From the NCBI GenBank assembly GCA_013297675.1, contig JAAFHZ010000024.1, forward strand, positions 1 to 43,252: 43,252 bases of DNA, given 5' to 3'. Under the pieces are notes generated by a model that was given only the letters and a program-made list of their open reading frames with translations, did not search any database and was not told the origin of the DNA. Position numbers and translations under genes: made by a program. This document shows, in pieces, positions 10,776 through 23,627 of this stretch. Each line of letters starts with the position of its first letter. The stretch's first letter is position 1. This DNA comes from Synechococcales cyanobacterium bin59.metabat.ball.084 (GTDB lineage: Bacteria; Cyanobacteriota; Cyanobacteriia; Cyanobacteriales; Chamaesiphonaceae).

Positions 10776-11147
10776 AGGTTTCAGTTAACACCAATGATTC
10801 GAGGTGATCAAAATCGCTTAACATTACTTTCTTCCAGCTATTGCTATTGGTTTCCGCCAAAAACTAAAAACCGAATGAGTCTGTGCGCATTGAATATAAA
10901 GAAAGGGTGACAGGGAGAGCAACAATACTATGTTTGTAGAGTTATTCCCACGATCACTGTGAAATTCAATGAGGCGATCGATCCCACCAAGTTAATTTAC
11001 CCTGACTACCTGGGGCGCAGATAGAATTTTAGTAAAATTACTTATTTTGCAGTTTCTTGGTGCTTCCTCTTGCAAATATTATTTTTTGTCGTAAATAACC
11101 TGCTGAACCGAGGGAATAATGAGAATGGACTAATTATTCTGAAAATC
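10776..11147. other. Divergent intergenic region
   Basis: About 370 bases between two divergent genes. It must hold the promoters of both, but I see no motif strong enough to name. It includes several HIP1-like CGATCG cores near 10977-10983. The frame of the next gene runs open upstream to a TTG at 11070, which I do not take as the start. No RNA gene was recognised. Confidence 0.4.
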
Positions 11148-12560
11148 ATGTTGATTTCTTGGTCGGTGCTAAAGAGATCGAAATTCTGGCTATTGCCAAT
11201 TTTGTTGCTAGTGGCCGGATTAATTATCTGGATGAAGTCACAGCCCGCTCAGACTTTGACCAAGCTTTTACCATTGCCCCAACATACCCAAATTCAAGCT
11301 TTTTTTAATCAGAATCCCGTAAACAGCTACCTGGAGCCATATCGAGGGATTCAACGACCTGGGGATGATTTGGAGTCGATTATTATTGCCGAGATCGATC
11401 GAGCAGAACAGTCGATCGACATTGCCATACAGGAATTAAAGCTGCCTCGAATTGCTTGGGCTTTAGCAAAACGTCAACAGGCTGGAATTAAAGTGAGAGT
11501 AGTACTAGAGAACAACTACAGTACAAGCTGGAGTACTTGGACAGCTGCTGATGTTGCAAAACTTTCTGATCGGGAGCGCAGCCGCTATCAAGAATTTGTT
11601 AAGTTGGTGGATATTGATGGAAATGGTCAACTTAGCGGGGTAGAAATCGATCGACGAGATGCCCTCAAGATTTTAGCAAATGCCAATATTCCGATTATTG
11701 ATGACACTGCGAACGGTTCCAGCGGCAGCGGTTTGATGCACCATAAGTTTATGGTGGTAGATAGTAAAAAAACCATCGTTACTTCAGCGAATTGGACACT
11801 CAGCGATGTGCACGGCGATCTAAGTCGGCGGGAGACGCGAGGAAATTCTAATAATTTGCTGGTGATCGATAGTGTGCCGGTGGCTCAAATCTTTGCTCAG
11901 GAGTTTAGTTTGATGTGGGGTGATGGCCCTGGTGGTTTGCCCAATAGTCAGTTTAAGGCGGGTAAACCCGAGCGGCCAGCAGTAACTATTCCAGTAGGTG
12001 ATAGTCAGGTAACTATCCACTTTTCCCCCTCTGCCAAAAGTCAAGATTGGGCAACAACTACTAATGGTTTGATCGGTCAGGTTTTGGGTCGATCGCAGTC
12101 TCAGCTCGATTTGGCATTGTTTGTATTCTCAGAACCCCAGCTTGGTGAGGTGTTGGAGACTAGTTCGGCGCGTCAGGTGCCCGTGCGACTGTTGATCGAT
12201 CGAGAGTTTGCCTATCGTCCTTACAGTCAAATGTTGGCGATGTTGGGGGTGACATGTTCATCTAGTAATCGTCGTGCTTGGGCAAAACCAATTACCACTG
12301 CTGGAGTCCCCGAGCTGCCCTCGGGTGATTTGTTACACCACAAATTTGCTGTAATCGACAAATCCCTGGTCATCACGGGTTCTCATAACTGGTCAGCAGC
12401 CGGAAATTATAAAAATGATGAAACTTTGCTGGTGGTCGCCAGCCCGGTAGTTGCCGCACATTTTCAGCGAGAATTTGATATCTTGTATCGATCGGCTAAG
12501 TTCACACTGCCAGCAAAGCTCCAGAATTGTAGCAGATCCATAAGCGGGCAAGAGGAATAA
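11148..12560 (+). CDS. Membrane-anchored phospholipase D-like protein with EF-hand loop
   Basis: A 471-residue protein of the phospholipase D superfamily with two HKD motifs: HHKFMVVD (H198, K200, D205) followed by TSANW, and HHKFAVID (H397, K399, D404) followed by TGSHNW. Members hydrolyse phosphodiester bonds in lipids or nucleic acids; this layout, with the motifs in two half-domains, is also found in nucleases. The N-terminus has one hydrophobic signal anchor (residues about 12-29), putting the catalytic domain outside the cytoplasmic membrane. Between the fold's first strands and the first HKD is DIDGNGQLSGVE (residues 155-166), a textbook 12-residue EF-hand calcium loop. The ATG at 11148 is preferred to an upstream TTG at 11070. 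The gene converges with a kinase gene 3 bases away. Confidence 0.88.
   Translation: MLISWSVLKRSKFWLLPILLLVAGLIIWMKSQPAQTLTKLLPLPQHTQIQAFFNQNPVNSYLEPYRGIQRPGDDLESIIIAEIDRAEQSIDIAIQELKLPRIAWALAKRQQAGIKVRVVLENNYSTSWSTWTAADVAKLSDRERSRYQEFVKLVDIDGNGQLSGVEIDRRDALKILANANIPIIDDTANGSSGSGLMHHKFMVVDSKKTIVTSANWTLSDVHGDLSRRETRGNSNNLLVIDSVPVAQIFAQEFSLMWGDGPGGLPNSQFKAGKPERPAVTIPVGDSQVTIHFSPSAKSQDWATTTNGLIGQVLGRSQSQLDLALFVFSEPQLGEVLETSSARQVPVRLLIDREFAYRPYSQMLAMLGVTCSSSNRRAWAKPITTAGVPELPSGDLLHHKFAVIDKSLVITGSHNWSAAGNYKNDETLLVVASPVVAAHFQREFDILYRSAKFTLPAKLQNCSRSISGQEE
11610..11645 (+). other. Predicted EF-hand calcium-binding loop within the PLD-like protein
   Basis: The 12 codons encode D-I-D-G-N-G-Q-L-S-G-V-E. 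Positions 1, 3, 5, 9 and 12 of the loop are Asp, Asp, Asn, Ser and Glu, the canonical calcium ligands, with Gly at 6 and Leu at 8 as expected. Flanking residues (ERSRYQEFVKLV and IDRRDALKIL) could form the two helices. Confidence 0.75.
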
Positions 12561-12563
12561 TAA

Positions 12564-14024
12564 TCACGGCATGTAAAGATCTAACAGCATCGAAACTTCT
12601 GCAGCTGGATCTAACTGTTTTAGATGTTCATTAATTTCCCCGGTCAGCCACAGACGCTCAGCAAAATCTAGATACTTACCAAAAGAATAAGGCCGAAAAA
12701 AGTGGCCGCTGTGATGACTCGACTCGCTACCATAATATTGTCGCCCCGCTGTAGCAAACTGCACTCCCCCCCCTAAACTTAAGGCACCAACTTGCTCACA
12801 GCTCACTGCTCTAATAGCATGGAGCGGCAACATTCGCCGATTAACAACCAGTCCATCTAATCTAACGGTATAAATTGCCGCCTGATCATTTACTACGATC
12901 TCGTGTTGAGACATCACTGCACCAAAGTATTGCCACAGTATACAGACCATCCAAGGAGCTATTGGCACCCAAATCGCCATACAGATCGCAATAACCCAAG
13001 TTGGCAATACCGCCGCGAACATTAACCAAGAACAAAATGCCACCATCAAGCTCAAGGACATAGCGGTAAAAAAAGTCTTTTTGCTACTGCGGGTCGCCAA
13101 CCAAATTGGTGGCACCACTATTTTCATAGTTTCGCCTTGTTGGACAATTTTGGCGATCGGCCTTTTCGGTCTGGGAGCTTTTGCCACCGCATTCCCTTGC
13201 AGACAGTCTAAAGCCAAAGCAGCACTGCGGTAGCGGTCTTCTGGCATGGGTTCTAGCAAACCATCCAGCCAATTGGCAAAATCTGCTGAGGTTTTTACTT
13301 TGCTGCGGAAATCTATTTTCATTTTCTTCACTGGCAAATCAGCCGGATCTTGACCCGATCGCAGATACAGCAAGGTTGCCCCCAAACCATACAAATCGGT
13401 CGCCAGCACCGCCTGCCCCCGAAACTGCTCGGGAGCCATGTAGCCATAAGTACCGACAATCGTACTGCCACCAGTAATAGTGAGATGATAGGTATCTCGT
13501 ACCGCCCCAAAGTCTACTAAATAAATTACTCCCGACTCAGTTCGTAAAATATTTTGAGGCTTCAGATCACGATGGATAATCGGGGGGGTGAAATTTTGCA
13601 AGTATATTAAAATATCTAGAAGCTGAATAGCAATTTGCTGTAGCTCTTTTTCGCTAAAGATATATCCTTGCTCGATCCAAGCCGTTAAAGGTTGACCAGG
13701 CGCAATCTCTTGCACTAAGCAAAAAGCTTCTTCCCCAGCAATTGGAGTACGAAAGAAATCCAAATATTTGGGGATAGCCGGATGATCTAGCTGTGCTAGA
13801 ATTTTGGCTTCTCGCTCAAATAGCTCTAGTGTTTTCCAGTCAGCCATTCCCTGAAGACTTAATACCTTAATGGCAACTTCAACATCTGTTTGCAGATCTA
13901 AAGCTCGATAAGTCTTACCACTACCGCCTTCTCCCAAAAGTTCTAGAATACGATACTTATCATGTACATTTGGCATGATCGAATTTTTCTCTAGAGGAGA
14001 ACTAACTGAAGCCGTGTCTTTCAT
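12564..14024 (-). CDS. Ser/Thr protein kinase with C-terminal membrane hairpin
   Basis: A 486-residue eukaryotic-like kinase. The glycine loop is GEGGSG (31-36), the ATP lysine K53 in VAIKVL, the partner glutamate E72 in FEREAK, the catalytic loop HRDLKPQN (from 151) and DFG at 171-173. The activation segment ends with VGTYGYMAPEQFRG. All catalytic residues are present, so it should be active. After about residue 315 come two or three hydrophobic segments, then a soluble tail of about 110 residues (VNDQAAIYTVRLDGLVVN and following). The start codon shares its A with the last base of the upstream kinase stop (TAATG), which implies coupled translation. An alternative start is M17 (MPNVHDKYRILE). 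Confidence 0.92.
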   Translation of the reverse strand: MKDTASVSSPLEKNSIMPNVHDKYRILELLGEGGSGKTYRALDLQTDVEVAIKVLSLQGMADWKTLELFEREAKILAQLDHPAIPKYLDFFRTPIAGEEAFCLVQEIAPGQPLTAWIEQGYIFSEKELQQIAIQLLDILIYLQNFTPPIIHRDLKPQNILRTESGVIYLVDFGAVRDTYHLTITGGSTIVGTYGYMAPEQFRGQAVLATDLYGLGATLLYLRSGQDPADLPVKKMKIDFRSKVKTSADFANWLDGLLEPMPEDRYRSAALALDCLQGNAVAKAPRPKRPIAKIVQQGETMKIVVPPIWLATRSSKKTFFTAMSLSLMVAFCSWLMFAAVLPTWVIAICMAIWVPIAPWMVCILWQYFGAVMSQHEIVVNDQAAIYTVRLDGLVVNRRMLPLHAIRAVSCEQVGALSLGGGVQFATAGRQYYGSESSHHSGHFFRPYSFGKYLDFAERLWLTGEINEHLKQLDPAAEVSMLLDLYMP

Positions 14025-16741
14025 TATTCTACTCCTTTTGAATTACGGCGTTCCATCTCACATTGAACAATAAAGTCACGTACTTGAGAAGTCTCAACAT
14101 CATCAACTAGTGGCACCATATCTAAAGCCGTTTCACCATTTTTATTTAATAAATTAAGGTCTGCTCCTGATGTAATTAGCAGCTTAATTAGTTCGGTTCT
14201 GGCAACTGTTCTGCTCCCAACATTGTGTAAATTTTCGCGCAGTTCTCGATATAAAATCGTGTTTCCATTAACATCTTGTTTATTAATGGATTTAGCATTT
14301 TTGCCAAGTGATAGCAAGATTTGCATAGTACTGATTGGAATTCCATGACCCTGAGCAGCGATCGATAAAGGACTTTCTTCAGCATTATTTAACTCCGAGG
14401 ACTTCCAGCCATAGCTCATCATTCGCTGCATGAGTGGAAGCAGATCTTTCTTGGCCACTAGATGTAGAGCTGTCTCACCATCCTTATTTTTTAATTGAGG
14501 ATTTGCTTTTTGGCTGACTAACAGATCCAGAACATGCAATGCTAATGAATTTTGTTTTGTACAATTCAGAGCTGGATTATCTAAGTTATGCAGTCGGTGT
14601 AAGGCCGTATCACCATTCTTATCAGCTAGGTTAGGATCAGCCCCCCGCCCCATCAGCAATCCAATAATTTCTTTTGCTTTGCTTTTTGCTGCTGTCGCAT
14701 CAGCAAGATTAGATGGGTTGTAAGGATAAACTGAGGGAGAAGCAAATGTGGAATGGTGATAAATTGCTGAATATGTGCTTGGCATAGAATCAGCAGCGCT
14801 AAGAGCTACAATTAGCGGTGTTTGACCCAATTTATCGGGGGTGTTTACGGTTGGCACCTTGTCTACCAAAAGCTTTACAAAATCGACTTGCCTGTTTTCC
14901 ACAGCGCGAATTAGCAAGGTTTGACCCTGAAGATTTCTGGCATCAACTTGCTTAGTTTGATTCAGTAGTTCCTCAAAAAGTATTCTGTTATTGCTCTGTA
15001 AGGCAGTATGAATAGGAACATCACCGCTATCGTTGAAAGCATTAAAATCTACTTTTGCATCAGTTAATTCCTGAGCAATTTCTAGCACAGCTTGCTCTGA
15101 ATATAATTTTTCATCGCCATATCCACCAGCATAAGGTGAGTATTTTTCATCATGATACTCGTTAATAAAGGACTTTCTTTCTTGATAAGGATAACGATGC
15201 CAAGCTAACACGTGCCATAGATTAGAATTATGGCGATCGGTAGTGTGCGGATCGGCTCCCCTTTTTAGTAAATCTTTGACTGCTTGAACATTGTGGGTCT
15301 TCACAGCTACCAATAACGGGGACTCGCTAAAACTATTGAGAGCGTTTAGATTGGCCTTGTAATCTATCAACAGGTGCAGAAATTTCGATATTTCTTGATC
15401 AGGACAACCAGAATTGATTTTTTTATCTCTCAAATTTGTCTTATCCACCTCTGCTTTATTGATCAAACCCATCTTTTTATCAACTAAAAAAGTCAGATCA
15501 GCAGATTTCTTCGCAGTAAATTCTGGAGTATTTTGATACCTGTTGACCACTTGATGCAGCGGGGTCGCCCCCTGATTATTGGGTTCATTAGGATTAGCCC
15601 CACGTTTCAGAAGATTTCTGGCAATATCTATCTGGTTGTGTTCGATCGCGCAATGTAGCAGAGAGCCATGATGGTATCCATCAAGTTGACCATCATAGAT
15701 GGTTACATTGGCATTAGCGCTACCGCCATGATTGAGGTACTCATTTAAAGGCACCAAATCATTTTGTTGAATCGCGGTACAGAGATCGCGGGGTTGTAAA
15801 CCAATCAAAGTTAAAAAGGCATAGCGATATTGGTAGCTTACCGGCAGAGCAAATATCGAGACGGCCAGCACCGCCGCCGCACCGCGCCAGGGAAAGCCCA
15901 CTTTGGCACCAGTTTGTACCCGAAAACGCTGTTCTTTGCGCAGAGCCTGTAGAGCCGCTCCCGCCGAGGCAAATCGATCGGCAGTATCTGGCTCTAGCAT
16001 CATTTCTAGCCAGTCGGCAAAGTGGTTAGCAATGTTTACATGACCACGGAAACCAATTTTTAACCGTTCCTGGGGTAAATCCGCAGGCGATCGATGGGTC
16101 AACAAGTACAAGAGAGTGGCACCTAAACCATAGAGATCGCTACTAGGCACAGCCATCCCCCGAAACTGCTCGGGAGCCATGTAGCCATAAGTGCCTGCAA
16201 CAGTACTACCCTTCATTAAGGTATTGTGGTATACATCTTGCACTGCCCCAAAGTCCACCAAAAACACCTGACCGTCATCGTTGCGAATAATGTTGTGGGG
16301 CTTAATATCTCGGTGGATTAACGGCGGAGACTGCTGATGTAGATACTGCAAAATGGCCAAAAGCTGACTGGCAATATCCCGTACTTCTGCTTCGGTGCCC
16401 AGCCAGCCATCTGTTACCCAGCCGGTCAAAGGTTTGCCAGGAGCCAACTGCTGCACAATATAAAAAGCCCGATTACTGGGCGTATCCACATGAAAATACT
16501 CTAGATACTGAGGAATTTGGGGATGACTAAGTTGGGATAAAACCTTGGCTTCGCGCTCGAAGAGTTCTAGCTGCTTCCAATCATTCAGGTGGCGCAGAGA
16601 AAGAATTTTAATCGCGACCTCGGCTCCATCACCAATCCGAGTTGCGCGGTAGGTGCTGCCGCTGCCGCCAGAACCCAACAGTTCGGCCAGTTGATAGCGT
16701 TCGGCAATAATACTGCCAGTCAGTGAATTAGCGACTTCCAT
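14024..16741 (-). CDS. Ser/Thr protein kinase with ankyrin-repeat C-terminus
   Basis: A 905-residue protein. Residues about 15-270 are an intact kinase: glycine loop GSGGSG, K45 in VAIKIL, E64, HRDIKPHN (143-150), DFG (163-165) and GTYGYMAPEQFRG. A hydrophobic segment follows (about 286-302). The rest, to the C-terminus, is a run of about ten ankyrin repeats, seen as SLLHCAIEHNQIDIARNLLK, then RGANPNEPNNQGATPLHQVV, GADPNLADKNGDTALHRL and NGETALDMV. The kinase therefore lies on one side of the membrane and the ankyrin solenoid on the other, or the span is a peripheral helix. The ATG at 16741 is chosen because GGGGAGA precedes it at good spacing; the frame extends only to a TTG upstream. It overlaps the next kinase gene by one base. 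Confidence 0.93.
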   Translation of the reverse strand: MEVANSLTGSIIAERYQLAELLGSGGSGSTYRATRIGDGAEVAIKILSLRHLNDWKQLELFEREAKVLSQLSHPQIPQYLEYFHVDTPSNRAFYIVQQLAPGKPLTGWVTDGWLGTEAEVRDIASQLLAILQYLHQQSPPLIHRDIKPHNIIRNDDGQVFLVDFGAVQDVYHNTLMKGSTVAGTYGYMAPEQFRGMAVPSSDLYGLGATLLYLLTHRSPADLPQERLKIGFRGHVNIANHFADWLEMMLEPDTADRFASAGAALQALRKEQRFRVQTGAKVGFPWRGAAAVLAVSIFALPVSYQYRYAFLTLIGLQPRDLCTAIQQNDLVPLNEYLNHGGSANANVTIYDGQLDGYHHGSLLHCAIEHNQIDIARNLLKRGANPNEPNNQGATPLHQVVNRYQNTPEFTAKKSADLTFLVDKKMGLINKAEVDKTNLRDKKINSGCPDQEISKFLHLLIDYKANLNALNSFSESPLLVAVKTHNVQAVKDLLKRGADPHTTDRHNSNLWHVLAWHRYPYQERKSFINEYHDEKYSPYAGGYGDEKLYSEQAVLEIAQELTDAKVDFNAFNDSGDVPIHTALQSNNRILFEELLNQTKQVDARNLQGQTLLIRAVENRQVDFVKLLVDKVPTVNTPDKLGQTPLIVALSAADSMPSTYSAIYHHSTFASPSVYPYNPSNLADATAAKSKAKEIIGLLMGRGADPNLADKNGDTALHRLHNLDNPALNCTKQNSLALHVLDLLVSQKANPQLKNKDGETALHLVAKKDLLPLMQRMMSYGWKSSELNNAEESPLSIAAQGHGIPISTMQILLSLGKNAKSINKQDVNGNTILYRELRENLHNVGSRTVARTELIKLLITSGADLNLLNKNGETALDMVPLVDDVETSQVRDFIVQCEMERRNSKGVE

Positions 16742-17324
16742 AATTCTCCCCAAAAAAATTGTGAATTATTAACAAATTGGGATGGCTAACATCCTTTAAC
16801 GTGCTTTGACTGATCACAGTCAACCGAATAGTGGTCATCTGCGCCAGTTTTTGGGCAACAAGCCCGAGCGGCTAGATTCCAGAAGCCTAGAATAAATCTT
16901 TATCCTAGCAGTACATATCCATTGATCTTCTCGGAACAATGGGAACACTTTCATACTTTAGCGAAAATTCCTGGAGTTCGTGAAGTATTTTGCAGTATAA
17001 ATCACCTCAAATAATATTTTTTTTCAAAAAATATTCAATAAATATCTGTGGCGCTCAATGTTTCGTGGCAAGTGCAAAATAATTACATTGTTGGCAGCAA
17101 TTCCAAATGCTGTTTAGTGCTTTTGAATTTGGAATTGCTGGCAGATACTGGAAAATGCTGTGAAATTGGCCAAATGATGCGAAGATGGAAACTTAAATAT
17201 TGTTTACTTTTCCCCTAATATCCCAGCCTTAGTTACGGGCATTTTAAGCTAAGTAAGATTTCCTGCTTTGAACTGCTCCAGCAAAGCAGCGGATTCTAGA
17301 TCTCATCCTAGTATTTCTCCCTCA
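16742..17324. other. Divergent intergenic region before the TamB-like gene
   Basis: Nearly 600 bases with no gene that I can support, AT-rich in its middle part (poly-T and poly-A runs near 17017-17030). It holds a strong inverted repeat at 17095-17140, described separately, and should carry the promoters of the kinase operon and of the TamB-like gene. No tRNA or known regulatory RNA was recognised. It is the longest gap without any gene trace in the window. Confidence 0.5.
17095..17140. repeat. Perfect 14-bp inverted repeat with 18-base spacer
   Basis: CAGCAATTCCAAAT at 17095-17108 is the exact reverse complement of ATTTGGAATTGCTG at 17127-17140. A few more bases pair outside the arms if one mismatch is allowed. 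It lies 185 bases before the TamB-like start. There is no T-run after it, so it is more likely an operator, an RNA structure in a leader or a mobile-element trace than a terminator. Confidence 0.7.
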
Positions 17325-20300
17325 ATGGGTATTCTACCGTCCAAAATCGATCAACCAGCTTCTACCCCAGAGGATCGATCGACTCCAACGTCGATCGGTT
17401 CTGTCCGACCTAACTGGATGGGTACTGCCGCTAAAATCACTGCTGGCTTTTTGGGGTTGGGCTTGTTGGGTTTTATCGGAGCCAGCATTTGGGTTGCCAC
17501 TAACTTATCGCCAACTATCGCCCGCGAACTCACCAAAGCCCTCGATCGACAAGTGGCCATTGGGCCAGTAGAAAATATTGGCTTTAACGAAATTAACTTT
17601 GGAGCCTCTAGTTTAGCGGCCAACCCCGACAGTCCAAATAAAGTAGCCGTCAAAGCGATCAAAATTAGCTTTGATCCTCTGGCAATTTTGTGGCAAAAAA
17701 CCATCAAACCCGCTATTACCCTGGTGGAGCCAGATTTACACCTAGAACAATCTGCCAGCGGGGATTGGTTGCGCTTAAAACTGCCACCCGCTGCACCCAA
17801 CAAACCAGGAGATTTTCGCACCGAAATTCAGGCTCTGCGGGTGCAAAAAGCCCGAGGTACAGTAATTCCTTATCAAGCTAACGGTTTACGACAGCCTATT
17901 GAGTTTCAAAGCACCGATTTCAATGCCAACTTCAACCATCGAGATCAGGCGATCCAACTGATTAACTTTGATGGCAAAAGTCAAATTGGTAAAGACGCCA
18001 AATTAGCTCTGCGGGGTAGCACCTCACCGATCGAGCGCACCATCAATTTAGAGATAGCAGGTCAATCACTCAACGCCAAACAAGTCAGTAACCTGGTCAA
18101 AATTCCGGCGGTAGATTTTCGCAGTGGCATAGTGGGCGGTAATCTCAGCCTCAATATTCAACCAAATAAGCCCCTAGAAATACAGGGTAAAGTCCGCGTA
18201 GATCAAGCCGCTATTCAAGTAATTCAAGTGCCAGAGCTGTTTACTAACACCAGCGGTGACTTGCAAATTTCTTCCCAGGACGTGAAATTAAGCAACGTCT
18301 CTACCTTATATGGTCAGGTGCCGGGACAAATTACTGGCTCGATCGATTTTACTAAAGGCTATGACCTCCGCGCAAAAACTGCTGTTTTGCCAGTGACCAA
18401 GCTCCTAGAAACTCTCAAGATCAAATCTCCGGTGTTTTTGGCAGCACAGTTACAATCTGACCTTACTCTCACCGGGCAGTTGCAGCAGCCGATTTTTGCC
18501 GGTAAAGCCCAAGCCATTGGAGCTGCTCAAGTCGATCGATTAACTATCAATCAATTACAGGGCAATTTTTCCTTGGCAGATGGCAATCTTCAGTTCAATC
18601 AAATTAGCGCCACCCCCACTAGCGGCGGCACGGTTACTGGCAATGGTGCAATCTCGCTCACAGAATCGACTACCCCCACAGTTAACTTCAAGCTGCAAGG
18701 CAACAAGCTGCTAGCTGACGTTTTAGCTCAGTCCTATCAACAAAAACTCCCGATCGCCTTGGGGGTAGTCAACGGCAGCGCCCAAGTTACGGGGCCAGTA
18801 GATCAGATCAAAACCACCGTCCAAGTCCAAGCCCCCCAAGCTACTTATCCGCTCAATGCTCAAGTAGGCATTGCCGCTGATGGGTCAATTACGGTCGATC
18901 GAGCGAAATTTCAACTGGCTGGCCATGATATTACCGGCACAGGCAGCAGCAAACAAGGTCTCTGGCAGGCGCGCCTCCAGGTACCAGCAATACCTAGTCA
19001 GCAATTAGCCGCGATCGCTAAAATCCAAGATTTACCGGCTTTTTTAAAAGGTAATGTTCAAGGTGATCTCCAGCTCAATGGTTCTGTCAACAACAGCGCC
19101 AGCCTGAGTGGTCAAGGACAACTACAGCTCCAAACTGCCGGTGGCCGAGTCTCTGCCACCAACTTTGCCCTGAATCAAGGCAAGTGGCAAGCCGATTTGC
19201 AGACGGCGGGATTAATGCTGGACAAAATTGATCCCCAAATTCCAGGACAACTTACTGGCAAATTTAAGGTGAGCGGTGATACTGCCAACTCTTCACCGGC
19301 AGCGATTACCGCCCTAGGCAATGGAGCCGTAACTCTACCCGATGGCAAAATTACTGGCCAGAATTTATTACTAAGTCAGGGCAAGTGGCGAGGTGATTTT
19401 AGTGCCGAAAGCTTTGATATTTCTAAACTGGCTCCTCAAATCGGCGGCAAACTCAGCGGTAAGTTTCAAGCTAGTGGTGATGCCAGTAAATTTACGCCAG
19501 CCACGATTTCGGCTAGTGGAGCTGGCACCGTTGCCTCAGCCCAGGGTAAAGTTACCGGGCAAAATTTACGATTGCAGGCCGGTAAGTGGCAAGGAGATTT
19601 TAGTAGCGAAAGCTTTAATATTGCGAAGCTGGCTCCCCAAGTAGGCGGTAATCTGAGCGGTAAGTTTCAGGCCAATGGCGACCTAGAGAGCAGCAATCTG
19701 AACAATATTATTGGCAGCGGCTCTGGCCGTCTGCGCCTAGCTGATGGCGAACTAGTCGGTAAAGATCTGCAATTAAGCGGGGGCAATTGGCAAGGTAATC
19801 TAGCAGTAGCAAAAGTACCTTTGGGTAGATTGTCACCCAATATCCCCAAAACTTGGCAAACGGCGCTACTAGATGGCAATTTGCAGGTGGCTGGTTCGAT
19901 CGATCACCCCGAACAAGCTTCAGTACAAGGTGATGCTGCTGTTAAATTGGGCAATGGCCAAATTACAGCCAAAGATATTCAAGTCGGTGCAGGGCGTTGG
20001 CAGGGGTTGGTGACTTTGCAATCGATCGAACTCAATCAGCTATCGCTCCCCCAAAAACTGCCTGCTGGTCAGGTTGATGGTACTTTTCAGTTAGCTGGAT
20101 CATTAGATCAGCCTCAATTAGAAACCGCCACAGGCAGTGGCAAATTGCGCTTGCCAGGAGCTTTACTGGTAGCCAACCAGCTAGAAATCAAGGGTGATGA
20201 ATGGCGGGGTCAGTTTCAAACCAACAATTTGGCCGTGGGACAGTTCGCCAGCTTACCGCCGAATTTGAGGGGGATTCGAGTTAGCAGCAGCTTTGATTTG

Positions 20301-23300
20301 AGCGGTAATCTCAAAAATATTCAACAGGTCGATGGCGGCGGTAGTGGCAGGGTGGTGCTGGGCAACAGTACCGTTGCTCTCCAAAAATGGCAGTTGAACA
20401 AAGGCAATTGGCAGGTGGCTGCTAGCACTACAGGTTTATCTTTGGGTGCTTTGGGTACAGCGGTACCAGATAACTTACAGGGTGGAGTCTTTAAAGGAAA
20501 CGTGGATCTCAGTGGTTCTCTCGCGAAACCGCAGCTTACGGCGATTAGTGGCCAGGCCAGTGGAGAGTTAGCAATTTGGGGTGGTGCTATTGCTGTTGCA
20601 CCCGTGCAAATTGCCGATGGTCGTTGGCAAAGTAGGGCAATTACTGTGCGCAATATTAATTTGGCTAATGTCGCAAACAACAATATTCGGGTGCTAGGAG
20701 GTCGAGTTTCTGGCACGGCACAGGCAACTGGTCGCCTCGATCGATTTGACCTGAAGGATTTGCAAGTAGATAGTAACGTGCAACTCAGTGGGTTGTCACT
20801 CAAGCCCAATTTAGCCGGAGCTATTTCACCTCTACCACCGATCGATCTAGCGGGACCGGCGAAAATTATTAATGGCAAAATTGACATAGATTTAACTGAT
20901 AAGAATAATTCATTATCTATACATTCCGATGATCGAACAGTGAAATTTGCTGGGCGGTTAGCAGACATTCCAGCAGAGAGTCTAGCCAGTGGTCAGTCAA
21001 CGACGATCGAAGCAGAGGGTGAAATTAACAGTAAGCTGTTACGGTTAACGGCTAGAGGTGTGCCGATCGATCTAGTTACCAGCTTTTTACCGCCCTTGCC
21101 CCAAATTAAAAAGCAAGAACTTAAAGGAATTGTGGGTGGTGAGTTAAGCATTGATTTGTCTAATGGTAAGCTTGCTAAAATCGAAGGCACAAATCTATCG
21201 ATCGATAATCCCCAAATCGGTATTCTTAAAGGTGATCGGCTGCAAAGTGGCAGCGTGAGCTATGCTGATGGTACTTTGACTGTGCGGGATGGAATGTTTT
21301 TACGAGATAAGAATATTTACTTAATTGACGGTAGAATTTTTACCAAAGCTCAACAGCCTGAATATCAACTATCAGTTAAAGTCGATAAAGGGAAATTAGC
21401 TGATGTGAGTAATTTGTTTCAGATTTTTTCACTGGATGATGTAATTAATCCTTTTGGTGAGCGGGGCTATGGTCGAGCGACAGATCTGCAAGCAAAAAAA
21501 GTTGGTAGTGATGTACTCACGCTCCAAGATCAAGTCGATCGACTCTCTGAAGTCCGTCGCTTGCAGGGTATTCAAGCTGAAAAAGCCGAAGAAAACCCCC
21601 TGCCCGATCTGCGTAAATTAGATGGTGATTTTCAAGGGACAATCGTAATTAACAATGCGGCAAAGCAGGGCGTTTATGCTAGCTTTGATGTGAACGGTGA
21701 AAACTGGACAGTAGACCAATATAAATTATCTGGAGTTAAGTTGCAGGGACGCTGGCAAAACAATTTGCTGACTATCTCAGATATATCATTAAATTCTACT
21801 AACTCTCAAATCCAGCTCACAGGAGAATTTGCTAGAGATCGACAAAATGCCATTATTAAAGTTAATAATTTTCCGGCAGAACGCTTAAACAAATTGTTTG
21901 GTCTGCCGATCGAAGTAGCTGGGGACGTAGATTTGAAGGCTCAGTTAGGTGGAGCTTTCTTTGATCCTCAACTCTGCGGTAATGTAACTATTGCTAGAGG
22001 CAAACTAAATCAATTTGATGTCCCAGAAATTTATACTGACTTTAATTATAATAATGCTAGGCTCGGATTTAACAGTATTTTTAGAACGAGTATTGCAGCA
22101 GACAATACAAAAGAATTATTGCCAAAAGATATCTGCCGCAACACTATTTCTTTAGCCAGTGGAGAAAATGAACCACTGCGAATTGCTGGCAGTGTGCCTT
22201 ACCAGCTACCTTTTGCCCAAAAGTCTCCCGACAATCAAAACTTTAGTATTAACCTAAAAGTACAAAATAAGGGCATGCAAACTCTATCCACTCTAACCCA
22301 ACAGCAGCTAAATTGGGTAGATGGTGATGGCCAAATCAACGTTTTACTTAAGGGACAGATCGATCGAACAGGCAATCCCAAAAATGTCACGGCTAGAGGT
22401 GATGCCACGATCGCTAATGCTGTTTTACAAGCTGCTGCTTTACCAAGTAATTTGACCGGAGTAAATGGTCAAGTCAGCTTCGATTTAGATCGGGTAAAAG
22501 TTGATAACTTTCAAGGTAAATATGGCAACGGCGAAATTGTTGCTCAAGGCAGTATTGCGATCGAAAAACCATTGGAATTACCAGATCCTCTGACTGTAAA
22601 TCTAGATAAAGTTCAGATTGATCTCAAAGATCAATATCAAGGTGGGGTTTCTGGCCGTTTGTTATTAGGCAACGGTACAATTTTAGCCCCGCGTCTAGGT
22701 GGTGAAATAAAGCTTAGCAATGGCAAGATTTCATTACCCGAAACTCCAGCAGCAGGCAGCGCATCATCTAATCCCCCCAATGATACTGACTCCGCCTTAC
22801 AGTTCAAAAGCTTAGATTTATTATTGGGCGAAAATGTTCAGGTAGAAAAATCACCAATTTTGAGCTTTTTAGCCACCGGCAAAGTGAACTTAAATGGTTC
22901 GATAAACAACCTTCAGCCAGAAGGATTAATTCAGTTAGGGCGTGGACAAATTAATTTGTTTACTACTCGTTTTCGTCTCACTGGTAATGAGAACACTGCC
23001 CGTTTTACACCCGAGCGAGGTGCTGATCCGATCGTTAATTTACAGCTTAGTACTAAGGTTTTAGAAACATCTCGTCTACCCAGTATAAATAGCTCGAATG
23101 AGCGAATTGATATTGATCGTCGTAACTTATTTAGTACCAACTTTGGGGCGGTACAAACGGTACAGGTAGATGCCAAAGTCAACGGAGCTGCATCCCAAGC
23201 CACTAATTTGATCTCTTTAACTAGTACTCCTAGCCGCAGTCAAGATGAGATTTTATTGCTGTTAGGGAATGGTTTAGGCCGCATTTCACCAAATGAAAGT

Positions 23301-23627
23301 GGTCTATTAAATTTTGCTGGCTCTACGGCGATCAATTATGTGCAAGATATTGTGAGTGATTTACTAGGTCTGAGCGACTTTAGGATTTATCCGGCCTTAA
23401 CCACTCAGCAAGGACAAAATAATACTACTTCTACCTTAGGGGTTGCCGCAGAACTGGGGTTAGACTTAAATAAAAATGTTTCGGCTTCGGTGTTTAAAAT
23501 TCTGACCAGCGGCGAAGCACCTCAATATAGCATTAGATACCGGATCAGCGATCGATTGCTGCTGCGGGGGTCTTCTAATTTGTTAAATGAGAGCAGAGCG
23601 ATTTTGGAGTACGAGAACCGATTCTAG
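17325..23627 (+). CDS. TamB/TIC236-like envelope biogenesis protein (DUF490)
   Basis: A 2100-residue protein. One hydrophobic segment near residues 36-58 (KITAGFLGLGLLGFIGASIW) anchors it in the inner membrane. The rest is a long, beta-rich periplasmic chain, ending in a TamB-type C-terminal domain with VDAKVNGAASQATNLISLTS and SQDEILLLLGNGLG. TamB proteins form a hydrophobic beta-taco spanning the periplasm and are linked to outer-membrane protein and lipid transport; the chloroplast relative TIC236 links the two import translocons. The middle carries tandem modules of 67-71 residues beginning G-K/N/R-W-x-G/A. The frame opens at a TTG at 17268, but the ATG at 17325 is the first ATG. The gene lies alone on the plus strand and is the longest in the window. 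No Omp85-family gene is next to it in the window. Confidence 0.93.
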   Translation: MGILPSKIDQPASTPEDRSTPTSIGSVRPNWMGTAAKITAGFLGLGLLGFIGASIWVATNLSPTIARELTKALDRQVAIGPVENIGFNEINFGASSLAANPDSPNKVAVKAIKISFDPLAILWQKTIKPAITLVEPDLHLEQSASGDWLRLKLPPAAPNKPGDFRTEIQALRVQKARGTVIPYQANGLRQPIEFQSTDFNANFNHRDQAIQLINFDGKSQIGKDAKLALRGSTSPIERTINLEIAGQSLNAKQVSNLVKIPAVDFRSGIVGGNLSLNIQPNKPLEIQGKVRVDQAAIQVIQVPELFTNTSGDLQISSQDVKLSNVSTLYGQVPGQITGSIDFTKGYDLRAKTAVLPVTKLLETLKIKSPVFLAAQLQSDLTLTGQLQQPIFAGKAQAIGAAQVDRLTINQLQGNFSLADGNLQFNQISATPTSGGTVTGNGAISLTESTTPTVNFKLQGNKLLADVLAQSYQQKLPIALGVVNGSAQVTGPVDQIKTTVQVQAPQATYPLNAQVGIAADGSITVDRAKFQLAGHDITGTGSSKQGLWQARLQVPAIPSQQLAAIAKIQDLPAFLKGNVQGDLQLNGSVNNSASLSGQGQLQLQTAGGRVSATNFALNQGKWQADLQTAGLMLDKIDPQIPGQLTGKFKVSGDTANSSPAAITALGNGAVTLPDGKITGQNLLLSQGKWRGDFSAESFDISKLAPQIGGKLSGKFQASGDASKFTPATISASGAGTVASAQGKVTGQNLRLQAGKWQGDFSSESFNIAKLAPQVGGNLSGKFQANGDLESSNLNNIIGSGSGRLRLADGELVGKDLQLSGGNWQGNLAVAKVPLGRLSPNIPKTWQTALLDGNLQVAGSIDHPEQASVQGDAAVKLGNGQITAKDIQVGAGRWQGLVTLQSIELNQLSLPQKLPAGQVDGTFQLAGSLDQPQLETATGSGKLRLPGALLVANQLEIKGDEWRGQFQTNNLAVGQFASLPPNLRGIRVSSSFDLSGNLKNIQQVDGGGSGRVVLGNSTVALQKWQLNKGNWQVAASTTGLSLGALGTAVPDNLQGGVFKGNVDLSGSLAKPQLTAISGQASGELAIWGGAIAVAPVQIADGRWQSRAITVRNINLANVANNNIRVLGGRVSGTAQATGRLDRFDLKDLQVDSNVQLSGLSLKPNLAGAISPLPPIDLAGPAKIINGKIDIDLTDKNNSLSIHSDDRTVKFAGRLADIPAESLASGQSTTIEAEGEINSKLLRLTARGVPIDLVTSFLPPLPQIKKQELKGIVGGELSIDLSNGKLAKIEGTNLSIDNPQIGILKGDRLQSGSVSYADGTLTVRDGMFLRDKNIYLIDGRIFTKAQQPEYQLSVKVDKGKLADVSNLFQIFSLDDVINPFGERGYGRATDLQAKKVGSDVLTLQDQVDRLSEVRRLQGIQAEKAEENPLPDLRKLDGDFQGTIVINNAAKQGVYASFDVNGENWTVDQYKLSGVKLQGRWQNNLLTISDISLNSTNSQIQLTGEFARDRQNAIIKVNNFPAERLNKLFGLPIEVAGDVDLKAQLGGAFFDPQLCGNVTIARGKLNQFDVPEIYTDFNYNNARLGFNSIFRTSIAADNTKELLPKDICRNTISLASGENEPLRIAGSVPYQLPFAQKSPDNQNFSINLKVQNKGMQTLSTLTQQQLNWVDGDGQINVLLKGQIDRTGNPKNVTARGDATIANAVLQAAALPSNLTGVNGQVSFDLDRVKVDNFQGKYGNGEIVAQGSIAIEKPLELPDPLTVNLDKVQIDLKDQYQGGVSGRLLLGNGTILAPRLGGEIKLSNGKISLPETPAAGSASSNPPNDTDSALQFKSLDLLLGENVQVEKSPILSFLATGKVNLNGSINNLQPEGLIQLGRGQINLFTTRFRLTGNENTARFTPERGADPIVNLQLSTKVLETSRLPSINSSNERIDIDRRNLFSTNFGAVQTVQVDAKVNGAASQATNLISLTSTPSRSQDEILLLLGNGLGRISPNESGLLNFAGSTAINYVQDIVSDLLGLSDFRIYPALTTQQGQNNTTSTLGVAAELGLDLNKNVSASVFKILTSGEAPQYSIRYRISDRLLLRGSSNLLNESRAILEYENRF
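19179..20640 (+). repeat. Tandem 67-71 residue modules inside the TamB-like gene
   Basis: The module starts G-K-W-Q-A-D-L, G-K-W-R-G-D-F, G-K-W-Q-G-D-F and G-N-W-Q-G-N-L are spaced exactly 201 bases (67 codons) apart. Further starts (GRWQGLV, DEWRGQF, GNWQVAA, GRWQSRA) follow at slightly longer spacing. Each module runs through a K-F-x-x-S/N-G-D turn and a G-K-V/I-T-G-Q-N-L strand. Adjacent copies near 19380-19690 are still close at the DNA level, which points to recent unequal duplication. Confidence 0.8.

Follow-up and report, generated by a model that had tools for sequence, protein, structure and literature searches.

Nearest in kind to the protein encoded in the window (the whole 43,252-nucleotide stretch of cyanobacterial DNA that was analysed) are the Family 3 lytic transglycosylases (E. 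coli MltB/Slt35 and P. aeruginosa SltB1-3), cell-envelope enzymes in whose catalytic domain a single EF-hand is likewise inserted (PMC12547810). That paper cites a study whose title reports calcium to be important for their stability; later authors argue that the Family 3 EF-hand mediates interactions and is not purely structural (PMC12547810). These enzymes have a lysozyme-like catalytic domain unrelated to the PLD domain found here, and the loop of the pseudomonal SltB enzymes has 17 residues, against 12 in the window protein (PMC12547810). They are therefore an analogue only, although one that offers a works-like precedent for a calcium clamp: the EF-hand would be used much as in the Family 3 enzymes, on an enzyme of the PLD superfamily.

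The catalytic part has relatives of its own. Among solved folds, the best match to our structure model is Serratia plymuthica phospholipase D (SpPLD, 7e0m; Z 32.6, rmsd 3.1 Å over 328 residues, 16% identity), in a tie with PLD3 (Z 31.8) and followed by PLD4 (31.4) and vaccinia F13 (30.6); by sequence, the closest PDB entries are MitoPLD/Zucchini, Nuc and NucT. SpPLD has two HKD motifs with GS behind the first, as in the window family. It has a predicted signal peptide and no anchor, and the word ‘calcium’ is absent from the main text of its paper.

PLD3 and PLD4, which are lysosomal 5′ exonucleases, resemble the window protein in their N-terminal anchor, non-cytosolic catalytic part and two motifs per chain (Z of about 31), at 17–20% identity. 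In PLD3, Mn2+/Mg2+ is bound 20 Å from the active site, coordinated through water by an oxidised cysteine; no mention of an EF-hand was seen there (PMC10783504). The second motif of PLD3 is HKE (Glu423), whereas that of the window protein is HKD, with D404 invariant in 99 aligned rows. NucT, Nuc and Zucchini/MitoPLD have one HKD motif per chain and are dimeric, in contrast to the two motifs per chain seen here. NucT is periplasmic and membrane-associated, has an extra loop that borders the active groove, and is active independently of cations (PMC5714352). GPI-specific phospholipase D, with its Dx[DN]xDG motifs, was set aside as a separate, beta-propeller case (PMC3123361).

The window protein and its EF-hand

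The gene occupies positions 11148 to 12560 of the forward strand. Translation gives 470 residues and a stop, not the 471 residues of an earlier note on this DNA, and an alternative upstream start (TTG at 11070) would give a protein of 496 residues. Pfam PLDc_2 matches in two stretches with 142.8 bits, and the PLD active-site motif is matched as well. HKD motif 1 lies at residues 198–215 (H198, K200, D205, N215; positions 11739 to 11792) and HKD motif 2 at residues 397–414 (H397, K399, D404, N414; positions 12336 to 12389), and the columns of both are invariant across an alignment of 99 rows, made of the window row and 98 of 102 references (L001, L070, L074 and L098 were left out). With two HxKx4D motifs and a modelled PLD fold, the window protein is a PLD-superfamily phosphodiesterase that has both HKD motifs in one chain.

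A hydrophobic stretch at about residues 13–29 (positions 11184 to 11234), behind basic residues, reaches a mean hydropathy of 2.18 in the best 18-residue window of the N-terminus, where a lipobox is absent. The earlier note's description of a membrane-anchored PLD-fold protein thus agrees with the predicted anchor and the PLDc_2 and HKD matches. By a simple scoring rule, 35 of 98 relatives with the EF-hand have lipobox-like cysteines (six of the 98 are too short to judge), as do all 26 relatives that have lost the loop and four of six that have lost the whole insert. An anchor and a lipobox alike would leave the enzyme held in the membrane with the catalytic part outside the cytoplasm.

The loop DIDGNGQLSGVE (residues 155–166) lies at positions 11610 to 11645, exactly where the earlier note had placed it, with D1, D3, N5, S9 and E12 at the five calcium positions and E166 as loop position 12. 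It is thus a canonical loop of 12 residues, with ligands at 1, 3, 5 and 9 and an acidic residue at 12. A PROSITE-type EF-hand signature matches once in the six-frame translation of the window, at this loop. When the residues of the 31 open frames that are at least 150 residues long are shuffled, 0.03 matches are expected in a window; of 20,000 shuffled versions of the window protein, 25 contain the signature. A chance match was rejected on the basis of the shuffles and of the conservation of the ligands throughout the family. The single signature match in protein and window also means that a second EF-hand was not found. EF-hands are usually, though not obligatorily, paired.

Curated profiles were less responsive. 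Pfam makes no EF-hand call in the whole window protein at E≤10, and the fragment alone misses the EF-hand cut-off (E=0.059; 13.4 bits against 25.4). Across the 99 family rows at E≤1, EF-hand_5 matches 45 (best 1.2e-4) and EF-hand_1 matches 40 (best 1e-3); unrelated names appear at similar E-values, such as APOBEC_C in 13 rows (best 8.6e-4), so that the Pfam scores are not decisive by themselves. Calmodulins and a Cdc31-like protein are weak matches (E 0.22–0.86) to the part of the family profile that spans the E helix and the loop, and an unrelated mannitol dehydrogenase scores E 0.22 alongside them.

Conservation of the ligands is more telling. D1, D/N3, D/N5 and E12 are each present in 98 of the 98 rows with the EF-hand, a class for which D1 and E12 served as the definition, and the acidic positions that the earlier note had asked homologues to keep are thus retained. 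Position 9 is S, T, D, N or E, and position 8 hydrophobic, in 95 rows each, and the complete signature is matched by 66. Loop positions 2, 4, 7, 10 and 11 are less conserved in these rows than 73–93% of the protein's sites. Compared with a genus mate at 88% identity, the window protein differs at five of 12 loop residues (positions 2, 5, 7, 10 and 11), and the sole change to a side-chain ligand, N to D at position 5, keeps the ligand. No decayed loop was found among the 32 other family rows, in which the loop residues are wholly absent.

AlphaFold2, given the 99-row alignment, returned a model with a mean pLDDT of 93.5 and a pTM of 0.89. Its order is a strand (115–120), a helix (141–154), the loop, two helices (164–170 and 172–178) and the HKD1 strand (201–204), with pLDDT of 96–98 over the blocks that cover residues 141–180. 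The E helix (residues 141–154, positions 11568 to 11609, pLDDT 96–97) and the F helix region (residues 164–178, positions 11637 to 11681, pLDDT 98) would thus frame the loop as a helix-loop-helix, with 141–154 and 164–170 as the predicted flanking helices that the earlier note had named as a check; sequence and model agree with its placement of the loop between the early strands and the first HKD motif. In canonical EF-hands the F helix begins at loop position 10, as it does in the model. The EF-hand passes every sequence and model test that we ran, except for the curated profile call.

Distribution, loss and gene neighbourhood

The gene is widespread among related cyanobacteria. A homologue is present at E≤0.001 in 58 of 60 relatives, the window's own genome included, and in 97 of the 105 genomes of the window's order within a 386-genome draw of the phylum (E 2.5e-87 or better; presence of the loop was not part of this count). 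One of the 97, in G419, has internal stops, and the DprA match of that genome falls below the cut-off. Genome contigs were also scanned with six peptide patterns, none of them within residues 130–168, and among the best 80 of 135 relatives, which were kept, the scan yielded cyanobacteria, five Bdellovibrionota MAG contigs, the locus L100 and the distant rows L105–L110.

A first alignment showed the loop in 77 of 97 distinct family rows and its absence from 20. The extended set has 130 family rows, of which 98 bear the loop, 26 have lost the loop and six have lost the whole insert, as well as 15 rows from outside the family; these figures are not prevalences, as 40 regions were hand-picked from the 386-genome search for families and odd match patterns. 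Nineteen rows were left out of the extended set by hand, in addition to rows identical in the kept columns: the fragments L045, L070, L074, L098, L117, L151–L153, L163 and L164, the first five of which have intact loops, and the distant or partial rows L105, L107, L160–L162, L169–L171 and L173.

The insert spans approximately residues 130–168 (positions 11535 to 11651), and alignment columns 122–186 hold 65 residues with it and 29 without. It is absent from the 15 outside rows and from the insert-lost family, in which about 36 residues have been removed; the loop-lost picocyanobacterial clade lacks a net 14 residues compared with picocyanobacterial rows that have the EF-hand. A FastTree tree computed from the columns outside the insert requires three changes between presence and absence of the EF-hand within the family, and four when all four states are told apart. 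Twenty-five of the loop-lost rows cluster together (support 94), nested inside the EF-hand rows, and the six insert-lost rows make up a second group (support 97). This nesting indicates loss for the two groups, but not for the remaining loop-lost row, L119, which stands alone on a long branch with unsure placement. The insert was therefore probably gained at the root of the family or close to it, with some three losses thereafter.

Both HKD motifs, with N allowed for D, are intact in 96 of the 98 EF-hand rows (the other two lack the columns of the second motif), in all 26 loop-lost rows, in all six insert-lost rows and in all 15 outside rows. EF-hand rows (L069, L072, L085) and loop-lost rows (L079, L094, L104) share an upstream neighbour 141–243 bases away, which supports the orthology of loop-bearing and loop-lost genes.

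Judged from these alignments, the EF-hand is a long-standing trait, kept by selection, in a cyanobacterial PLD family. The earlier note's view of an EF-hand in a PLD protein as uncommon holds for the superfamily at large, as far as it was searched, but not within this family, where the EF-hand is the rule. Among the titles listed in searches of open-licence PMC papers, none describes this protein, an absence that is not proof.

Outside the cyanobacteria, EF-hand PLD genes occur in the Bdellovibrionota contigs L068, L071, L073, L076 and L080, all of them MAG contigs, which the tree joins in a single group (support 100) at the end of a long stem. Their position in the tree suggests transfer, possibly involving predators. 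The loop-lost PLD of L100, from a MAG with the label Bifidobacterium breve, groups with picocyanobacteria in the tree and is probably contamination. Neither a phage nor a plasmid origin found favour: one distant phage record has 26.9% identity, and 160 plasmid records are all below 60%, the best of them from Vibrio at about 30–31%; the aligned Vibrio row, L175, lacks the insert. Of nine loci taken from viral contigs, two (L176 and L177) contain EF-hand PLD genes, and since the compared stretch of L176 is identical to L120, a row from a cyanobacterial genome, L176 is probably chromosomal carry-over.

No partner gene emerged from the neighbourhoods. Among the unannotated neighbour clusters, the most widespread one other than the PLD gene itself reaches 16 of 75 loci, its members shown being picocyanobacteria. 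In the window, two adjacent Ser/Thr protein kinase genes lie at positions 12564 to 16753 of the reverse strand, the second of which (14024 to 16753, reverse strand) has ankyrin repeats behind the kinase domain, and an open frame of 2119 residues occupies positions 17268 to 23627 of the forward strand. Elsewhere in the same genome, a single frame of 779 residues holds two EF-hand-pair matches above the cut-off (L185 and L186; G000:C188:30863-31252, reverse strand).

Substrate and the role of calcium

The reading that we hold with moderate confidence is that of a membrane-tethered phosphodiesterase that faces the periplasm, with an EF-hand that binds one Ca2+ as a structural clamp and a substrate that is likelier nucleic acid. 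By sequence, conservation and model, the insert of about 36 residues, behind the strand that precedes HKD1, forms a canonical EF-hand, and to judge from its ligand set it very probably binds a single Ca2+. With the N-terminus in the cytoplasmic membrane and the enzyme towards the periplasm, a compartment rich in calcium, the lone EF-hand would be largely occupied, and would serve mainly as a clamp on the segment that runs into HKD1.

As to the substrate, nucleic acid is the probable choice, and phospholipid a possible one of clearly lower likelihood. Nucleic acid is favoured because of the sequence relatives and the GS/TS element behind HKD1: TS or GS directly follows the motif in the family, and GS in that place has been named as the nuclease form (PMC8004604). 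The same GS is found in the phospholipase that matches the fold best, and the tie between that phospholipase and PLD3 makes the substrate reading less settled. A phospholipase or lipid-modifying PLD that acts on membrane lipids, its EF-hand aiding contact with the membrane, would suit the SpPLD match and the membrane tether; we regard it as somewhat unlikely, given that the nearest solved relatives by sequence are MitoPLD/Zucchini, Nuc and NucT and that the nucleases PLD3 and PLD4 match the fold equally well. More specific assignments were not reached: the best score against the NCBIfam NucT equivalogs was 68 bits (cut-off 297), and on their NCBIfam scores the defence genes DISARM DrmC (62.4 bits against a cut-off of 133) and DpdK (far below its cut-off) were rejected.

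For calcium, the choice between clamp and switch turns on several observations. A single EF-hand that is mostly filled outside the membrane points to a clamp rather than a switch, and the clean loss of the loop from proteins with intact catalytic motifs, together with the calcium-rich compartment, argues for a structural role. We also count for the clamp the model of the loop-lost Cyanobium protein L094, in which AlphaFold2 retains the flanking helices (98–110 and 115–121), at block pLDDT of 79–89 and from a thinner alignment of 37 rows. Since NucT is cation-independent, a role in stability fits better than one in catalysis. Loss of the module also fits a loss of regulation, and a putative calcium switch of the kind that the earlier note had placed next to the catalytic pocket, in which the entry and exit of Ca2+ would move the segment into HKD1 and toggle the enzyme with external calcium, could draw on the canonical 12-residue loop with both helices, on the invariance of positions 1, 3, 5 and 12, and on a location from which movement could reach the active site. 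Such a switch is nonetheless unlikely in our judgement, as the EF-hand is unpaired in a calcium-rich compartment and loop-less orthologues keep both catalytic motifs.

Co-occurrence with ComEC and wider meaning

A more specific proposal gives the protein a part in DNA uptake, as a nuclease that would act next to ComEC in the periplasm. NucT, the PLD nuclease described above as periplasmic and membrane-associated, has been implicated in Helicobacter transformation (PMC5714352). ComEC (PF03772) and the PLD gene were sought in the same 386 genomes, with tallies for order and class counted by hand. In the window's order (105 genomes), both genes were found in 95, the PLD gene alone in two (G146 and G314), ComEC alone in three (G104, G197 and G361) and neither in five (G035, G164, G187, G222 and G304), a co-occurrence with a Fisher p of 1.2e-5 when kinship is ignored. 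In the rest of the class, 56 genomes have both, one has ComEC alone (G300), none has the PLD gene alone and at least 13 have neither (12 listed as negative for both genes, plus G285).

Control genes (KaiA, secretin, psaA/psaB and DprA) were checked in 24 chosen genomes. KaiA was found in all five genomes of the order that lack both genes. G035 and G164, which belong to one genus, have kept secretin, PsaA/PsaB and DprA as well, which counts in favour of the uptake role. G187, G222 and G304 are degraded genomes: none yielded secretin or a DprA match above the cut-off, and psaA/psaB gave no match in G187 and only broken ones in G222 and G304. Two further genomes were not scored as cases of PLD decay because their control genes are broken (KaiA and DprA in G351, secretin in G293).

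Against a role in uptake, the five genomes represent only two lineages, the class genomes that lack both genes are of 1.6–1.9 Mb, and each gene occurs without the other in some genomes. Among the unannotated neighbour clusters, no gene indicates DNA uptake, and the words ‘nuclease’ and ‘phospholipase’ are absent from the main text of a genome-wide screen for transformation in Synechococcus elongatus (PMC7125226). The co-loss with ComEC is a weak lead, at most suggestive and confounded by genome reduction, and the uptake nuclease itself seems to us quite unlikely. Its most elaborate form, in which a Ca2+-dependent periplasmic nuclease would process incoming DNA beside ComEC, coupled by its EF-hand to external calcium, with loop-lost lineages independent of calcium, is very unlikely. 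That the loop is a chance look-alike, or no longer binds calcium, is less credible still: the missing Pfam call and the complete signature in only 66 of 98 EF-hand rows speak for it, but ligand positions that are fixed while adjacent ones vary freely, the modelled helix-loop-helix and the chance expectation of 0.03 matches speak against it.

With the structural clamp as the preferred reading, the family joins two well-known modules, the catalytic fold of the PLD superfamily and one EF-hand, and its gene is widespread in the window's order. Co-loss with ComEC supplies a concrete, though weak, first lead on the function of that gene. The relatives that lack the loop or the insert and retain both catalytic motifs amount to a natural deletion experiment, and natural pairs of EF-hand and loop-lost proteins make the question ‘clamp or switch?’ directly testable in what would be an extracytoplasmic enzyme.
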